From Natrononativus amylolyticus (lineage in GTDB: Archaea > Halobacteriota > Halobacteria > Halobacteriales > Natrialbaceae): 64,000 nucleotides of DNA. The notes beneath the pieces are model-generated. The model was not told the DNA's origin, made no database searches, and was given only the letters and a program-made list of their open reading frames with translations. Position numbers and translations under genes: made by a program. The stretch is taken from NCBI RefSeq assembly GCF_024362525.1, contig NZ_CP101458.1:310001-374000 (forward strand), read 5' to 3'. Shown here in pieces: positions 43,702-59,512 of this stretch (its first letter is position 1; each line of letters begins with the position of its first letter).

Positions 43702-44832
43702 TCACCCCGCGACCGCCGCGTACAGCTCGTCCAGTCGCTCGAGCGACCGGTCGACGCAGTACGCATCCCGGCGGTCCAGACAGCGCCGACCGAGGCGGTC
43801 GCGGCGGCCGAGCGCCCGCTCGAGCGCTCGAGCGAACGCGGCGACGTCGCCGGCCGGGTAGTGGTAGCCGGTCTCGCCGTCGATCACCGTCTCCGCGAGC
43901 GCCCCGGCGTCGGCGGCGACGACGGGCGTCCCACAGCAGATCGACTCGAGGGCGACCAGCCCCTGGGTCTCGACCGGGCTCGGGAACGCGAAGACGTCGA
44001 GCGCGGAGTAGAGCGCCGGGAGCTCCTCGCGCTCGAGGAAGCCGAGAAACCGCGCGTCGACATCCAGCTCTCGAGCGCGACGCTCGAGACCCGCGCGGGC
44101 GGGGCCGTCGCCGCCGACGACGAGCGTCACCGGCGCGTCGGCACCCGGGAGCGCGGCGACGGCCGCGAGCAGCTCGTCGAGTCGCTTTTCGTGGCCGTGG
44201 CGGCCGGTGTACCCGACGAGGAGCCGGTCGCGCTCGAGGGCGAAGCGTTCCCGGATGGTTGCGGGGTCGACCGGTCGGAACCGCGCGGTGTCGACGCCGT
44301 TCGAGACGACCCGGACCGGTGTCGAGACGCCGAGGGTGTCGAGGACGCGCTGGCGGGCGGTCACCGACGGCGCGATCACGAGATCGGCCCGGTCGTAGTA
44401 CCGGCGTTCGTAGCCGTTCGCCAGCCGCCGGACGCCGTCGACGAGTCGCGCCGTCGGCGCGAGGTAGCCCGCGTACTCGGCTGCGGGGGTGTGATAGGAG
44501 GCGACGAGCGGACGCTCAGCCCGACGGGCGAACCGGAGCGCCGCCAGGCCGATCGAGAACGGCGTGTGGGCGTGGACCACGTCGGGGTCCACACTCGAGA
44601 GCGAGTCCGGAACCCGGGGCTGGCCGAGGCGGTAACCACCGTAGAACGGGAACGGAACGCTCCGAACGGGGTGCTCGAGGGCGGCGGGATCGTACGCCGT
44701 CGCCGCCGGGTAGGCGACGTCCATCCGACCGCCCCGGGCCTGCCACCGGTCCCGCCAGGTCCGGACGGTGTAGCTCACCCCGTTCACCGTCGGCAGGTAC
44801 GTGTCGGTGAACGCGGCGACCCGATCGACCAT
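43702..44832 (-). CDS. GT4-family glycosyltransferase
   Basis: This 376-residue GT-B enzyme has the N-terminal motif FTDTYLPTVNGVSYTVRTW and HAHTPFSIG. The C-domain has GRHGHEKRLDELL and the E-x7-E-type motif SPVETQGLVALESICCGTPV. The start resembles lipid glycosyltransferases (SqdX/mannosyl type), which make sugar-lipid headgroups. It sits in a cluster with PAP2, a binding protein and another GT4. The donor and acceptor are unknown. Confidence 0.9.
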   Translation of the reverse strand: MVDRVAAFTDTYLPTVNGVSYTVRTWRDRWQARGGRMDVAYPAATAYDPAALEHPVRSVPFPFYGGYRLGQPRVPDSLSSVDPDVVHAHTPFSIGLAALRFARRAERPLVASYHTPAAEYAGYLAPTARLVDGVRRLANGYERRYYDRADLVIAPSVTARQRVLDTLGVSTPVRVVSNGVDTARFRPVDPATIRERFALERDRLLVGYTGRHGHEKRLDELLAAVAALPGADAPVTLVVGGDGPARAGLERRARELDVDARFLGFLEREELPALYSALDVFAFPSPVETQGLVALESICCGTPVVAADAGALAETVIDGETGYHYPAGDVAAFARALERALGRRDRLGRRCLDRRDAYCVDRSLERLDELYAAVAG

Positions 44833-44863
44833 CGTACGGCGGAATTCGACCACGCCGCTTAAG

Positions 44864-45721
44864 TCATTTGTTCGAGCGGCCGGGCCACGGGATCCGCGGC
44901 GACGGCAGTCGGCCCTCGAGGGACTCCGACAGCGACCACCGGCCGACGAGGTGGGCCGCGAGGACGACGCTGACGTACGCGAGAACGACGCCCGCGACGA
45001 CGTCGATCGCCCAGTGGATCCCGAGGTACATCGTCGAAATCGCGACGCTGACCGCGAGGACGAGGGCGACGGGGTACCACCTCGGGTAGACGTCGCGGCT
45101 CCGGTGGGCGAGCAGCGCTACCGTGACCGCGAGCGACGTGTGCAGCGACGGAAACACGTTGGTGTTGCGGTTGACCTGCCGCGTGAGGTGCTGGTACTGG
45201 GGATAGGTGTCGTACAGCAGCGCCTGGACGAGTTCCGGAATCATGTTTCGCGGGCCGTAGGCGATCACGAGGATGTAACACACCAGCCCGAGGGTGTAGT
45301 TGAGCGTGTACGCCGCGAGGAGCTCCCGAAGCGGCCTGGTATTCGACAGCGCGAAATAGGCGACGACGGGGAAGACGAGCAAGAAGACGTAGCCGTAGAT
45401 GTAGATGAACGAGAAGTACGCGGTCAGTTCCGGCGTCGCGTACGACTGCAGCCAGAGGATGAACTGCCCCTCGACGTCGTAGATCCACCCGGTCAGGTTG
45501 ACGCCGATCATCCAGGAGAGATCCGGAACGACCTGCCTGGCGACGCTGTTAAACAGGAGAACGATCGCCAGCAGGACGGTGATCGGCGCCGCGGCTTTGA
45601 CCCTGGTCGGCCACTCCTCGAGGGTCGCCTGTAGCCGGTAGCGGCCGACGAACAGCGCCATCGAGACGATCACCATGACCGTCACCACGATCGCCAGCTG
45701 GGTGAGGACGCGAACGAGCAT
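44864..45721 (-). CDS. PAP2-superfamily membrane protein (inositolphosphotransferase-like)
   Basis: This 285-residue protein has about six transmembrane helices. The PAP2 motifs are degenerate, as in the Aur1/IPC-synthase-like branch: NVFPSLHTSLAVT replaces PSGH, and TMYLGIHWAIDVVAG carries the catalytic His and Asp. It should remove or transfer phosphate on a lipid. The start overlaps the preceding stop (TGATG), so it is coupled to the binding-protein gene. A lipid-glycosylation role is inferred from neighbours. Confidence 0.86.
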   Translation of the reverse strand: MLVRVLTQLAIVVTVMVIVSMALFVGRYRLQATLEEWPTRVKAAAPITVLLAIVLLFNSVARQVVPDLSWMIGVNLTGWIYDVEGQFILWLQSYATPELTAYFSFIYIYGYVFLLVFPVVAYFALSNTRPLRELLAAYTLNYTLGLVCYILVIAYGPRNMIPELVQALLYDTYPQYQHLTRQVNRNTNVFPSLHTSLAVTVALLAHRSRDVYPRWYPVALVLAVSVAISTMYLGIHWAIDVVAGVVLAYVSVVLAAHLVGRWSLSESLEGRLPSPRIPWPGRSNK

Positions 45722-47568
45722 CAGCGCCTCACCAGGAGGTCGCCCCCCTCTCCGTACCGGAAGCCGGCGTCTTCGAACCCCGCCTTCGCGGCCGCGACGT
45801 CGAGGTCGCCGTCGGAGCCGACGAACGGGACGACGGGGTCCTCGCCGTCCCACGCAAGCTCGTCGGGGACCCACTCCCGGCTGAGCGGCGTGTCGACGGG
45901 CGTCGCGATCGGCGTCGCGTGCCCCTCGAACACCGTCTCCGCCAGCCACTCCTTGTCGAGCAACCGTGCGACGGCACGACGGAAGTACGGGTTGCCGAAC
46001 GGGGCGTTCCGGGCGTTGAACCCGACGTGGTAGAACGTCTGGGAGGGCGACTCGAGCAGCCGCGTCTCCTCGGCGTCGGGGATCTCCGCGAGCGAGTACA
46101 TCTCGAGGGGCGTCGACGTGACGTCGGCGTCACCGCCGTCGACGAGCGCGATCGCTGAGGCGCTGCGCGGGTCGATCTGAAGGCGCAGCTCCTCGACGGT
46201 CGCCTCGGGGAGGTCGACGCCGTCGCGGCGGGTGAAGTGCTCCTCGAAGCGCTCGAGGGTGAGGTGTTCGCGCTCGGTGCGGCTCTCGAAGCGAAACGGG
46301 CCGCTGCCGACGGCGGGAACGTTGTCGGTGACCAGCGCCTCGGTGGTCCCCTGGGCGACGCTGACGCCCCGAACGGTCGCCTCCGCCTCGCGCTCGCCCC
46401 AGACGTGCTCGGGGAGTACCGGCACGGTGAACGCCCGCTCGGCGACCGCTCGGCCGGTCGACACGGACAGCGAGAGCGTCCGTTCGTCGTGTACCTCGAT
46501 CTCCTCGATGGCGGCCGCCTGACCGCGGTAGCGCGGCGACGGCGCGGGAACGTCGCTGTTCCCCCGCGACGTGTCCGCGAGGAAGTCGTAGGTGAACGCG
46601 ACGTCGTCGGCGGTGACGAGTTCACCGTCGTGAAACCGGCAGTCCTCACGGATCGTGACCTCGACGGTCGATCCCTCCCACTCCCAGGACTCGGCGAGCC
46701 AGGGGAGCAGGTCGCTGTCCGCCTCGGACTCGAGAGCGTCGTCCTCGTCGGGGTCTGCGGTGTCGACGTCGGCCTCGAGTTCGTCGCTCGAGCCGGGCAG
46801 CGTCTCCGTCGCCAGCGAGTCGTACAGCAGGTCGACGACCGTTCCGCGGTTGCGGTACTCCGCCGAGAGCGGGTTGACGTTCTCGGAGGGGCGGGCGTCC
46901 ATCACCGTCGCCCGGAGCCGGGCGTCGGCGCCTTCCGCGAGCGGCTCGAGGCCGAGGTAGCCGAGGCGGGTCGCGAGGTGGTCGTCCCAGCCGTCGAACC
47001 GGTCCGTGCGAACGAGGCGGTACTCGTCGGGGACACAGACCGGAACGAACGGCTGCTCGCGGGCCAGCTCCTCGAGCATCGTCGCTACCGCCTCCCGTCG
47101 CTCCTCGCCGTCGGCCGCCCGCTGGTCCTCGAGGAGGTCGTCGAACAGCATGCTGGTGAACCCGAAGGGGTTCTGCCAGCCCGACTCGTCGGCGTAGATC
47201 GAGTGCAGCGCCTCGTAGAGGAAGTCGGGGTCGGTCGCGCCCGGGTGGCGGCCGACGTAGAGGTCGTAGTCGTGGTTGACGAGGATCGCCCGGAGGAACT
47301 CCTCGTTCGAGCGCAGGTCGATCGAGACGTCGACGCCCACCGCCTCGAGGTTCTCGGCCAGCCGTCGGGCGAGCTGGATCCCCTCGCGGTCGCCGTCGGC
47401 CGGCAGGGTGGTGATCGTCAGCGAGAGCTGTTCGATCTCGTCCCGGTTGACGACCGTGCGAACGTCCCTGACACAGCCGGCGAGCGCGCCCGTCAGCCCC
47501 GCCCCCGCTGCCAGGACCGACCGACGACGCCAGCCACCCGCACTCGAAGCGGTCGGATCTCGGTCCAT
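45721..47568 (-). CDS. Family 5 substrate-binding lipoprotein with apparent circular permutation
   Basis: This 615-residue lipoprotein has a Tat signal (WRRRSVLAAG) and lipobox LAGC. In the usual order the SBP_bac_5 N-lobe (LAESWEWEGSTVEVTIRED, DGELVTADDVAFTYDFL) comes first and the C-lobe (RLAENLEAVGVDVSIDLR, DPDFLYEALHSIY) last. Here the C-lobe is residues about 45-205 and the N-lobe about 215-610. The chain ends in AKAGFEDAGFRYGEGGDLLV, where a normal C-lobe would begin. It looks like a circular permutation. The ligand is unknown, no ABC permease is adjacent, and it may be a structural or lipid-cluster protein. Confidence 0.85.
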   Translation of the reverse strand: MDRDPTASSAGGWRRRSVLAAGAGLTGALAGCVRDVRTVVNRDEIEQLSLTITTLPADGDREGIQLARRLAENLEAVGVDVSIDLRSNEEFLRAILVNHDYDLYVGRHPGATDPDFLYEALHSIYADESGWQNPFGFTSMLFDDLLEDQRAADGEERREAVATMLEELAREQPFVPVCVPDEYRLVRTDRFDGWDDHLATRLGYLGLEPLAEGADARLRATVMDARPSENVNPLSAEYRNRGTVVDLLYDSLATETLPGSSDELEADVDTADPDEDDALESEADSDLLPWLAESWEWEGSTVEVTIREDCRFHDGELVTADDVAFTYDFLADTSRGNSDVPAPSPRYRGQAAAIEEIEVHDERTLSLSVSTGRAVAERAFTVPVLPEHVWGEREAEATVRGVSVAQGTTEALVTDNVPAVGSGPFRFESRTEREHLTLERFEEHFTRRDGVDLPEATVEELRLQIDPRSASAIALVDGGDADVTSTPLEMYSLAEIPDAEETRLLESPSQTFYHVGFNARNAPFGNPYFRRAVARLLDKEWLAETVFEGHATPIATPVDTPLSREWVPDELAWDGEDPVVPFVGSDGDLDVAAAKAGFEDAGFRYGEGGDLLVRR

Positions 47569-47680: not shown

Positions 47681-48739
47681 TCACGCTCGCCCCAGCACCC
47701 GGCGATAGTGCTCGTACAACCGCTGGCCGACGACCTCGAGGCGGTGGTCCCTGGCCGTCTCGCGGGCGTTTTCGCCGAGTCGATCCCTGAGCGACGGGTC
47801 GGCGGCGAGGCGCTCGAGGGCGTCTCGAAACTCGGCCTCGGTCTCGCACATGAGACAGTCGACGCCGTCAGCGTAGTACTCCCGGAACACCGGGAGGTCC
47901 CGCAGGACGACGGGTTTGCCACAGGCCATCGCCTCGAGGACGGCGATCCCCTGGTTCTCGGCGCGGGTGGGGAAACAGAAGACGTCGCCAGCGCCGAACG
48001 CCTGGCGTTTGTCGGGAACCCAGCCGGTGAACGTGACGTTCTCGGGGGGATCGCGCGTCCAGCGGCGAACCGCCGCGCTCGCCTGCGGACCCGTATCGTA
48101 GGGGCCGAACCACGCGAACTCGTAATCGGTCCGCCGGGCCAGCCGACAGAACGTCGACAGCCCCTTGCGCTCGAAGACGTTGCCGACGGCGAAGACGACG
48201 AGTCCCTCGAGGCCGAACCGCTCTCTGGCCGGCTCTCGGAACCGTTCGTGGCCGGCGAGGGAGTCGTGGTCGACGCCGTTCGTGAGCGCTTCGATCGGCG
48301 CGTCGACGGGGTAGGACTCGAGAACCCGTTTCGTCTGGCCGCTCGGACACAGCACGAGGTCCGCTCGCGAGTACAGCCACCGAAGGTACCGGCCGAGCGG
48401 GCGAGCGAGGCGCGTCGAGCCGCGAAAGCTCCCCCGGAAGTCCTCGCGCGTGACGTGGGCGTGGAGGATCAGGGGCCGTCCCGTCCGTCTCGCGTGGACG
48501 GCGAGCGCGACCGATCCGGGGCCGATCGCGTTGCAGTGGACGAGGTCGTAGTCGACGGGAACCTCGCCCCGGACCAACCGGCGTGAAACGGCGCGCAGCG
48601 GTTCGCCGCCGGTCCACGGCTCGGTTCGGATCTCGAGGTCGCTGAACGGCTCGAGGGCCCGCCGCTGGTGGGCGGCCGCAGTCGAGATGCCGCTTCGCTC
48701 GAGGGGGCCCTCGAGTTCGAGGTAGTTCAGCACGCGCAC
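47681..48739 (-). CDS. GT4-family glycosyltransferase
   Basis: This 352-residue GT-B enzyme has an N-domain with VHCNAIGPGSVALAVHARR and a C-domain with TNGVDHDSL, GNVFERKGLSTFCRLA and the donor-site motif PTRAENQGIAVLEAMACGKP. It begins with GTG 48739 (VRVLNYLELEG). It is the first gene of the minus-strand cluster with the permuted binding protein, PAP2 and second GT4. The role is probably in glycolipid or surface glycan synthesis. Confidence 0.9.
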   Translation of the reverse strand: MRVLNYLELEGPLERSGISTAAAHQRRALEPFSDLEIRTEPWTGGEPLRAVSRRLVRGEVPVDYDLVHCNAIGPGSVALAVHARRTGRPLILHAHVTREDFRGSFRGSTRLARPLGRYLRWLYSRADLVLCPSGQTKRVLESYPVDAPIEALTNGVDHDSLAGHERFREPARERFGLEGLVVFAVGNVFERKGLSTFCRLARRTDYEFAWFGPYDTGPQASAAVRRWTRDPPENVTFTGWVPDKRQAFGAGDVFCFPTRAENQGIAVLEAMACGKPVVLRDLPVFREYYADGVDCLMCETEAEFRDALERLAADPSLRDRLGENARETARDHRLEVVGQRLYEHYRRVLGRA

Positions 48740-57605: not shown

Positions 57606-57670
57606 GTGATGGATTGTTCTTTCGGTAGGTACCCTCTTTATAATCCTATAGTCTCATTTCGTGATAGACA

Positions 57671-59512
57671 ATGAGTACCAATACCGGTTTCGGAGATACC
57701 GTTTCTCGACGAAGGTTCCTGTACGCGACTGGTAGCGCCGCGGGGGCGGCAGCGATCGCCGGGTGCTCCGGAGATGACCCGGAAGCTCTAGAGAATGGCG
57801 ACGATGACCAACCCGATGTCGACGGCCCCGACGAAGAAGACGGAAAGGTGTTTCGGGGGATCAACGATCAACCGGATACACTGGATCCTGCCGCAGTGAG
57901 CACTGTCGCCGGGCGACAAGTGTTCTACCAAATTCTCGAAACGCTCGTCCATCATCCGAACGCAGAACCGCAAATCGAGGGGATGCTCGCGGAGGATTAC
58001 GAACTATCCGACGACGGCATGACGATCACTCTCGATCTCGTTGAAGGCGTGGAGTTCTCGGACGGTCGAGAACTGACCGCAGACGACGTCGTGTACACGT
58101 TCGAGCGGGTCGCCGGCGGCGAGGAATCGACGGAGAGTTCAACAATGCTCGATGATCTCGGTGTCGTCCACGAAACGGAGACTGTCGAAGAAGAGGGCGA
58201 AGAGTTCGATGATTACGTCGCCGGCAGTGCGGGTGTCACCGCAGTTGACGAGTACACGGTCGAGATAGAGCTCGAAGAACAGTTCCACATGCCGTTCGAG
58301 TTCCTGGCTCAACATACATTCAGCATCCTTCCGGAAGGGTACGTCGGTGACGTTGAGGGATACGATGGTGAGGTGGACTACGAAGACTTCGCGCAGGGTG
58401 ACCTCGTCGGAACGGGACCGTTCGTGTTTGACGAGTGGCAGCCCGGTTCGCACATTCAGATTTCTGCACGCAACGATTACTGGGGCGACGGCCCCGAGAT
58501 CCAGGGCGCCCATTGGGCACTCACAGACGACGGAAACGCGTCAGAGGCGTACGCCCTAGCCCTGAACTCCGATCAGGTCTCACTGACGTCCGGGACAATG
58601 GATCGAGATCTGATCGAGATCGAAGGAACGGACGATGAGGGGAGAGAGTACGGAACGTACGGTCCGATCGAAGACAACGGGGAGACCGTCGACTACTACC
58701 GGACGGCTGAGTTGAACACGTACTACCTCTGTTTCAACCTGGATCGAGTTCCCCGTGAAGTCCGGGAAGCGTTCGCATACGCTATCGATCGTCAACAATT
58801 CGTCGAAGAAGCGATGGACTCCCCTAACGATCCCGGGATTCACCATTTCGCGCCCTCTATCTTTCCGGGCGGTGTCGAGGAAGCCGAAGCCCACGCGGAA
58901 GAGAACTGGCCGTACGGCTACCGTGAAATGGGCCTTGACAGGGCAGTCCAGATCATGGAGGATGCGGGGTACGACGATGACAATCTGTTCGAGATCGAAC
59001 TCACGACCTATCCGGCGAGTGGGGATCTCGGGGAGTACCTCCGAGACATTTTGCGGGCGGCACACATCGAAACGTCGGTCTCACCCACGGACGTTTCAGT
59101 GCTGCTCGAGCAGGCCAGCAACGGACAACTCGACGCGTTCATTTCGAACAACACCGGGCAGGCGAGTCCGTATACGTTCGTCGACCGCTACACCCCAACG
59201 TACTGGGAGGGAAACGATGACGACTGGCGAGGGTCGATGTGGATCCCCGAAGAGTACGAGACGGCCCAGCGTGCGCGCGATGCATGGAACGAGATCAACG
59301 ACAATCTCGGTCCCTCGGAAGAAGAAGAGCAGAACCGCGCCGAGGCGTATCTGGAAATCGAGGAGGCGAACTGGGAGGAGATCGTTCGCATCCCGATGTA
59401 CTATCTGACCAGCGAACACATGCACTATGAGTGGGTCGATCGGCCACGAATCGGCTCGCTCCGGCGTCACTACCAGCGACTCAATACGGTCGAGATAGGC
59501 GAGCGACCGTAA
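57671..59512 (+). CDS. Family 5 peptide-binding lipoprotein (ABC transporter)
   Basis: This 613-residue SBP_bac_5 protein has a Tat signal (SRRRFLYATGSAAGAAA) and lipobox IAGC. The normal lobe order is kept: N-lobe INDQPDTLDPAAVST and GRELTADDVVYTFERV, then C-lobe YLRDILRAAHIETSVSPTD and FVDRYTPTYWE. It likely binds oligopeptides or dipeptides, but no permease or ATPase genes are adjacent. Regulator upstream and D-glutamate-type genes downstream suggest peptides carrying D-amino acids, which is inference. Confidence 0.9.
   Translation: MSTNTGFGDTVSRRRFLYATGSAAGAAAIAGCSGDDPEALENGDDDQPDVDGPDEEDGKVFRGINDQPDTLDPAAVSTVAGRQVFYQILETLVHHPNAEPQIEGMLAEDYELSDDGMTITLDLVEGVEFSDGRELTADDVVYTFERVAGGEESTESSTMLDDLGVVHETETVEEEGEEFDDYVAGSAGVTAVDEYTVEIELEEQFHMPFEFLAQHTFSILPEGYVGDVEGYDGEVDYEDFAQGDLVGTGPFVFDEWQPGSHIQISARNDYWGDGPEIQGAHWALTDDGNASEAYALALNSDQVSLTSGTMDRDLIEIEGTDDEGREYGTYGPIEDNGETVDYYRTAELNTYYLCFNLDRVPREVREAFAYAIDRQQFVEEAMDSPNDPGIHHFAPSIFPGGVEEAEAHAEENWPYGYREMGLDRAVQIMEDAGYDDDNLFEIELTTYPASGDLGEYLRDILRAAHIETSVSPTDVSVLLEQASNGQLDAFISNNTGQASPYTFVDRYTPTYWEGNDDDWRGSMWIPEEYETAQRARDAWNEINDNLGPSEEEEQNRAEAYLEIEEANWEEIVRIPMYYLTSEHMHYEWVDRPRIGSLRRHYQRLNTVEIGERP

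Follow-up and report, generated by a model that had tools for sequence, protein, structure and literature searches.

The minus-strand gene at positions 45721-47568 of the window, the whole 64,000-nucleotide stretch of DNA analysed here, almost certainly encodes a natural circular permutant of the cluster C fold (SBP_bac_5, Dpp/Opp/Nik-type) of substrate-binding proteins (SBPs). As judged from sequence comparisons, a short, variable linker connects the two canonical ends, and the chain has been opened anew within lobe II. The swap is ancient, and it arose at least three separate times in the SBP_bac_5 family. An earlier note on this DNA had proposed a permutation of this protein over the same span, and the ORF found there (ATG at 47568, TGA at 45723-45721, minus strand) indeed codes for 615 residues. 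The features of the locus are as follows.

45721-47568, minus strand: permuted SBP_bac_5 (cluster C) substrate-binding lipoprotein, 615 aa (ORF, Pfam, PDB profile, model)
47473-47568, minus strand: Tat signal (RRRSVL) and lipobox (LAGC, Cys32), residues 1-32 (read from the sequence)
46954-47436, minus strand: 'C-part', residues 45-205 (profile match to 1xoc 356-502; C-part HMM, 269 bits)
46906-46953, minus strand: variable hydrophilic linker, residues 206-221 (alignment A1)
45724-46905, minus strand: 'N-part', residues 222-615 (Pfam, residues 288-609 on profile 3-284; model against 1xoc 17-357)
46714-46803, minus strand: acidic disordered insert, residues 256-285 (length variable in alignment A1; low pLDDT)
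44864-45721, minus strand: PAP2_3 membrane enzyme, translationally coupled to the SBP (Pfam PF14378, E 2.9e-19; TGATG overlap)

The Tat signal and the lipobox were described from the start as intact, and both motifs are present, with Arg15, Arg16, Gly31 and Cys32 invariant across 17 relatives (alignment A1). The C-part that follows corresponds to the later part of lobe II and the segment that is C-terminal in canonical proteins, relocated to the N-terminus. The linker connects the canonical C- and N-termini, and its length among the relatives in alignment A1 ranges from a few residues to about 35. The N-part covers domain I/II and the beginning of lobe II, and it stops after the AGF-motif helix. 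The acidic insert is strain- or species-specific, with pLDDT values below 50 at model positions 227-252 (residues 259-284).

The protein scores 155 bits against PF00496 (SBP_bac_5; gathering cut-off 32.4) and belongs by profile to the same family as the canonical cluster C SBPs (E 3.5e-45). The Pfam match aligns residues 288-609 with positions 3-284 of the 368-position profile, and a second matched stretch lies elsewhere in the protein. A single-sequence phmmer search against PDB chains aligned residues 291-566 with 1xoc (AppA) 69-319 and residues 46-197 with 1xoc 358-505. The profile of 17 relatives gave the same picture, with positions 231-576 matching chain residues 35-346 (i-E 6e-41) and positions 43-193 matching residues 356-502 (i-E 6e-9); 5isu yielded the same swapped pattern. 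As 1xoc is matched in the window family first by its C-terminal and then by its N-terminal stretch, the order is swapped: residues 46-197 represent the C-terminal third of a canonical SBP_bac_5 protein and residues 231-615 its N-terminal two thirds. Both segments of a complete protein are thus present, and the canonical N-to-C order is absent. The proposal that a C-terminal-type segment precedes an N-terminal-type one is therefore borne out by the Pfam, phmmer and 1xoc profile matches, the two halves aligning with 1xoc in swapped order. As an internal control, the window carries a second SBP_bac_5 gene (57668-59509, plus strand), whose product matches profile positions 2-361 in one unbroken stretch of canonical order. 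The swapped arrangement is kept in relatives at 40-67% identity, which excludes chance or an assembly error. Swapped-order matches to one PDB chain were also obtained for the Natrialbaceae and archaeal-genus types discussed below and for one bacterial member; no permuted chain was found among the PDB matches of these queries or of the window family.

A first AlphaFold model of the window SBP, built with 14 sequences, was too poor for use (pLDDT 54). A deeper model (21 sequences including tandem paralogues, signal peptide removed) reached a pLDDT of 83 and a pTM of 0.85. VIA-align superposed its residues 179-583 on 1xoc 17-357 (Z 22.2, rmsd 2.8, 334 residues). Structural aligners follow sequence order and the superposition with 1xoc covers the N-part; hence, the moved segment (model residues 12-173, mostly at pLDDT 80-95) is placed by sequence profiles and model confidence. 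The best 50 Foldseek matches of the deeper model are SBP_bac_5-type proteins, and no PDB match outside these cluster C proteins occurred among the fold-search matches listed. With an SBP_bac_5 sequence profile and only cluster C proteins among those fold matches, a cluster B (type I) fold is very unlikely. The chain is predicted to fold as one SBP. The earlier note had asked for a structure prediction and had pointed to a different fold of the first 200 residues or a normal second C-lobe after residue 600 as outcomes that would speak against a permutation. In the confident model, the first about 200 residues correspond to the canonical C-terminal segment by sequence and by confident secondary structure, and no second C-segment is present after residue 600.

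The position of the breakpoint differs from that first proposed. The end of the protein had been put at the point where the C-lobe would begin; this is not quite correct, because the cut lies inside lobe II of Dpp/Opp structures and not between the lobes. The protein ends just past the helix 'AxxAFExAGF', and the strand that follows this helix in lobe II is where it starts. This cut, at about position 284 of 368 of the Pfam SBP_bac_5 profile, presumably corresponds to about residue 350 of AppA and 340 of DppA, inside lobe II. On a common alignment, the cuts of permuted proteins map to positions 323 (the main type), 324/325 and 303. From this map and from the linker in alignment A1, the native termini have been joined and the new termini opened at a single site. 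The permutation would thereby move the lipid anchor from domain I to lobe II.

We analysed the gene neighbourhoods of the permuted proteins. In the same genome (L086, L087) and in other haloarchaea, operon-type permuted SBP genes precede a pair of permease genes and a pair of ATPase genes; on bacterial plasmids, too, permease and ATPase genes follow the permuted SBP gene. As permuted SBPs stand at the head of complete dppBCDF operons, the permuted fold very likely still docks to and serves Dpp-type importers. No ABC permease or ATPase genes are found next to the window SBP gene. Its TGA stop codon (45723-45721) overlaps the ATG (45721-45719) of the PAP2_3 gene as TGATG, and almost every member of the window (P0001) type is followed by a PAP2_3 gene, mostly with a TGATG or TAATG overlap. 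The SBP-PAP2 unit is often duplicated in tandem, and the copies devoid of PAP2 are mostly second tandem copies. The PAP2 partner keeps FPSLHT and GIHWAID, which we take to be motifs typical of the PAP2_3 active site. This coupling of PAP2_3 to an orphan permuted SBP extends across Halobacteria, with a second example at L085 5635-6510 (minus strand). Group 1 glycosyltransferase genes are located on either side of the pair in the window (43702-44853 and 47681-48739, minus strand); they are conserved in a few relatives only, e.g. L007.

The window SBP would be exported by the Tat system, lipidated at Cys32 and act as an extracytoplasmic Venus-flytrap receptor. It may capture a ligand outside the cell and lend it to an ABC permease encoded elsewhere, or it may present the ligand to the PAP2 enzyme; we propose a direct hand-over to PAP2 only tentatively. 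The SBP-PAP2 pair might also be a signalling or lipid/glycan-processing module in which the SBP feeds or regulates PAP2, rather than a transporter part. The nearly constant and mostly overlapping PAP2 gene, the tandem duplication of the whole unit and the glycosyltransferase genes around it in the window and in L007 are consistent with such a module. However, these glycosyltransferases are not conserved in most relatives, and orphan SBPs often share permeases, so that we regard this possibility as somewhat doubtful.

Whichever partner the window SBP serves, the circularly permuted architecture is widespread. ORFs were classified as permuted or canonical by the order of their N-part and C-part HMM hits. 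Every full-length relative of the window type is permuted. Outside Halobacteria, archaeal relatives have the canonical order, as do those bacterial relatives for which an N-part and a C-part were both detected; the exceptions are noted separately. A profile search covered 295 Halobacteriota genomes, including 53 of haloarchaea. Hits were counted by hand when they spanned the junction or lay in a single frame, which gave permuted SBPs in at least 40 of these 53 haloarchaeal genomes; this is a minimum, since scoring was limited to four candidates per genome. The genome of N. amylolyticus has 17 SBP_bac_5 genes, four of which are permuted.

Among bacteria, we sampled genome-contig hits (L014-L024), PDB chains and plasmids. 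The contig hits have the canonical order wherever the C-part was detected, which was not the case for L017 and L024 with the HMM. A tblastn search of plasmids returned one-piece matches over most of the permuted query in Nitratireductor, Ketogulonicigenium, Microvirga, Maritalea, Roseomonas, Neorhizobium and haloarchaea. The plasmid loci examined are permuted by HMM order (7/7), and those of them that carry annotation lie in complete ABC operons. Thus, the count of homologues with the same swapped order that had been suggested as a check extends from haloarchaea to alphaproteobacterial plasmids. A permutant of this fold had been expected to be rare; the permutation is real, but it is not an isolated case, as it characterizes a large subfamily and was re-invented independently at least twice more. 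No permuted member tested reached an NCBIfam equivalog.

The alphaproteobacterial megaplasmids carry their permuted SBP genes in ABC operons (L180-L183, L185, L186). Two of these loci (L181, L185) adjoin hydantoinase/oxoprolinase and M20/M28 peptidase genes, and a haloarchaeal locus (L184) adjoins a creatininase and an M20/M25/M40 hydrolase gene. These neighbours give hints of cyclic amide or peptide ligands.

For phylogenetic analyses, permuted sequences were un-permuted in silico and then aligned with canonical ones; about 64 ORFs of permuted and 46 of canonical order went into a first tree. A mixture-model tree computed from 53 rows places the alphaproteobacterial sequences in one group with both haloarchaeal types, the PAP2-linked and the operon type (support 99/97). 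On these sequence data, the main permuted architecture appears as a single clade spanning Halobacteria and Alphaproteobacteria. The label 'permuted' requires three changes on this tree, forced by the starred branches, and the same number on a tree of 56 rows. A single origin of all permuted forms was rejected: none of 200 bootstrap trees needs only one change, and an AU test rejected the union of the main clade with the Natrialbaceae (L137) type (p 8e-59).

The second origin is represented by the following gene.

L137 1361-3028, minus strand: permuted SBP of the Natrialbaceae type (relatives L155-L174)

This type occurs in 25 Natrialbaceae genomes, at 43-74% identity over the whole length. L137 nests with L136, its nearest canonical relative, with which it shares 45% and 33% identity in the two parts. 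Its cut precedes that of the main type by about 20 residues and lies on the opposite side of the lobe II helix (303 vs 323 on the common alignment; 257 vs 284 on the Pfam profile).

The third origin lies outside the haloarchaea, in a single genus of a class that is probably Archaeoglobi. The protein is permuted in three genomes of this genus, G285, G293 and G332 (L122/L143, L144, L145), and canonical orthologues are found in four others (G269, G281, G392, G419) and in other genera; the canonical orthologues of sister species include L146, L148 and L150. Within the genus, permuted and canonical orthologues are 83-88% identical, and L143/L145 share about 86% and 84% identity with the canonical L146 in the two segments. 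This permutation is very recent, the sister species having retained the canonical orthologue at about 85%. At the join, the sequence is MIFRYYLVYSEDGKDTITIGV; the chain was cut between LKKAGYSE and KLKLELWW. The gene is head-to-head with an intact dppBCDF set. An assembly artefact is unlikely since the arrangement occurs in three independent assemblies, one of which is a single contig.

Probably, an ancestral SBP gene would have been duplicated in tandem and the copies fused in frame; loss of the outer segments with retention of the signal peptide would then have generated the permuted SBP. We looked for remnants of a second, duplicated copy beside the young archaeal-genus gene and saw none. 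Descent of both segments from a single canonical parent is directly apparent for the L137 and archaeal-genus types, and by profile only for the main clade. For that clade, the C-lobe fragment of one SBP might instead have been fused ahead of a truncated SBP from another lineage: the canonical parent is too distant to prove a one-gene source, and the first matches of the moved segment were weak in single-sequence searches. However, every permuted protein contains a single N-part and a single C-part, which adjoin at points that complement each other, and in the two independent cases both segments best match one canonical gene (L136 for L137; L146 for L143/L145), which makes such domain shuffling very improbable. 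Decay or loss of function of the window SBP, which would make its segment order irrelevant and which the absence of adjacent ABC permease genes might suggest, is hardly credible: the ORF is intact, dozens of positions are conserved, as are the Tat motif and the lipobox, and the operon with PAP2 and the synteny across Natrialbaceae are conserved as well.

We therefore retain circular permutation of a single SBP, and the helix of lobe II, with breakpoints on both sides, is likely to be a permutation hot spot of cluster C. It would have been used at least three times independently, once recently enough for canonical and permuted orthologues to exist in one archaeal genus. The resulting design, which shifts the membrane anchor or the free N-terminus to lobe II, is likely to have been selectively maintained in two domains of life. 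Lipid anchoring as a general reason for permutation was considered and dropped, because the bacterial plasmid members have cleavable-looking signal peptides that, by eye, are devoid of a lipobox.

Natural circular permutations are mostly inferred from comparisons of distantly related proteins. The present family offers a large, ancient permuted clade, an independent case with a shifted breakpoint and a recent case with an unpermuted orthologue of ~85% identity, so that the mechanism, the folding cost, the docking to ABC importers and the membrane tethering become directly testable. The permuted subclass is easily missed, because pipelines label all these proteins simply 'ABC transporter substrate-binding protein' and their coverage by profile models is only partial. 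For the design of biosensors on Dpp/Opp-type scaffolds, permuted SBPs also offer breakpoints that nature has already tested.

The window SBP resembles canonical cluster C SBPs (AppA 1xoc, DppA 1dpp, OppA, NikA) in family and, for the N-part of the model, in predicted fold (Z 22.2 with 1xoc), and many of its permuted relatives share their operon partners. It differs from them in its swapped segments, its fused native ends and the location of the new termini and lipid anchor in lobe II. The PAP2_3 protein carries the same active-site-type motifs as the membrane phosphatase/phosphotransferase family PF14378; we found no description of its co-translation with a substrate-binding lipoprotein. We also found no report of a permuted cluster C SBP in the open-access literature, an absence that is weak evidence. 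Among other SBP classes, a tethered ABC SBP with a natural circular permutation is TpMglB-2 (Tp0684) of Treponema pallidum, which has Gram-positive relatives and was proposed as 'Cluster Bc' (PMC4990184); it retains ligand binding by experiment, and its authors suggested that tethering favoured permutation. In contrast to the window SBP, it belongs to cluster B (type I, sugar-binding), has another breakpoint and forms a single subfamily; near-identical unpermuted orthologues, as in the archaeal genus, are not described in the text consulted. Glycine betaine-binding proteins (OpuAC vs the ProX group), for which CPSARST found circular-permutation relations (PMC2395249), are likewise binding proteins mutually related by permutation, but they form another, smaller SBP class whose relation was recognized from structures at low sequence identity. 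Thus, permutants are known for other SBP classes, and what appears to be new here is their occurrence in cluster C, their recurrence and a before/after pair within one genus.
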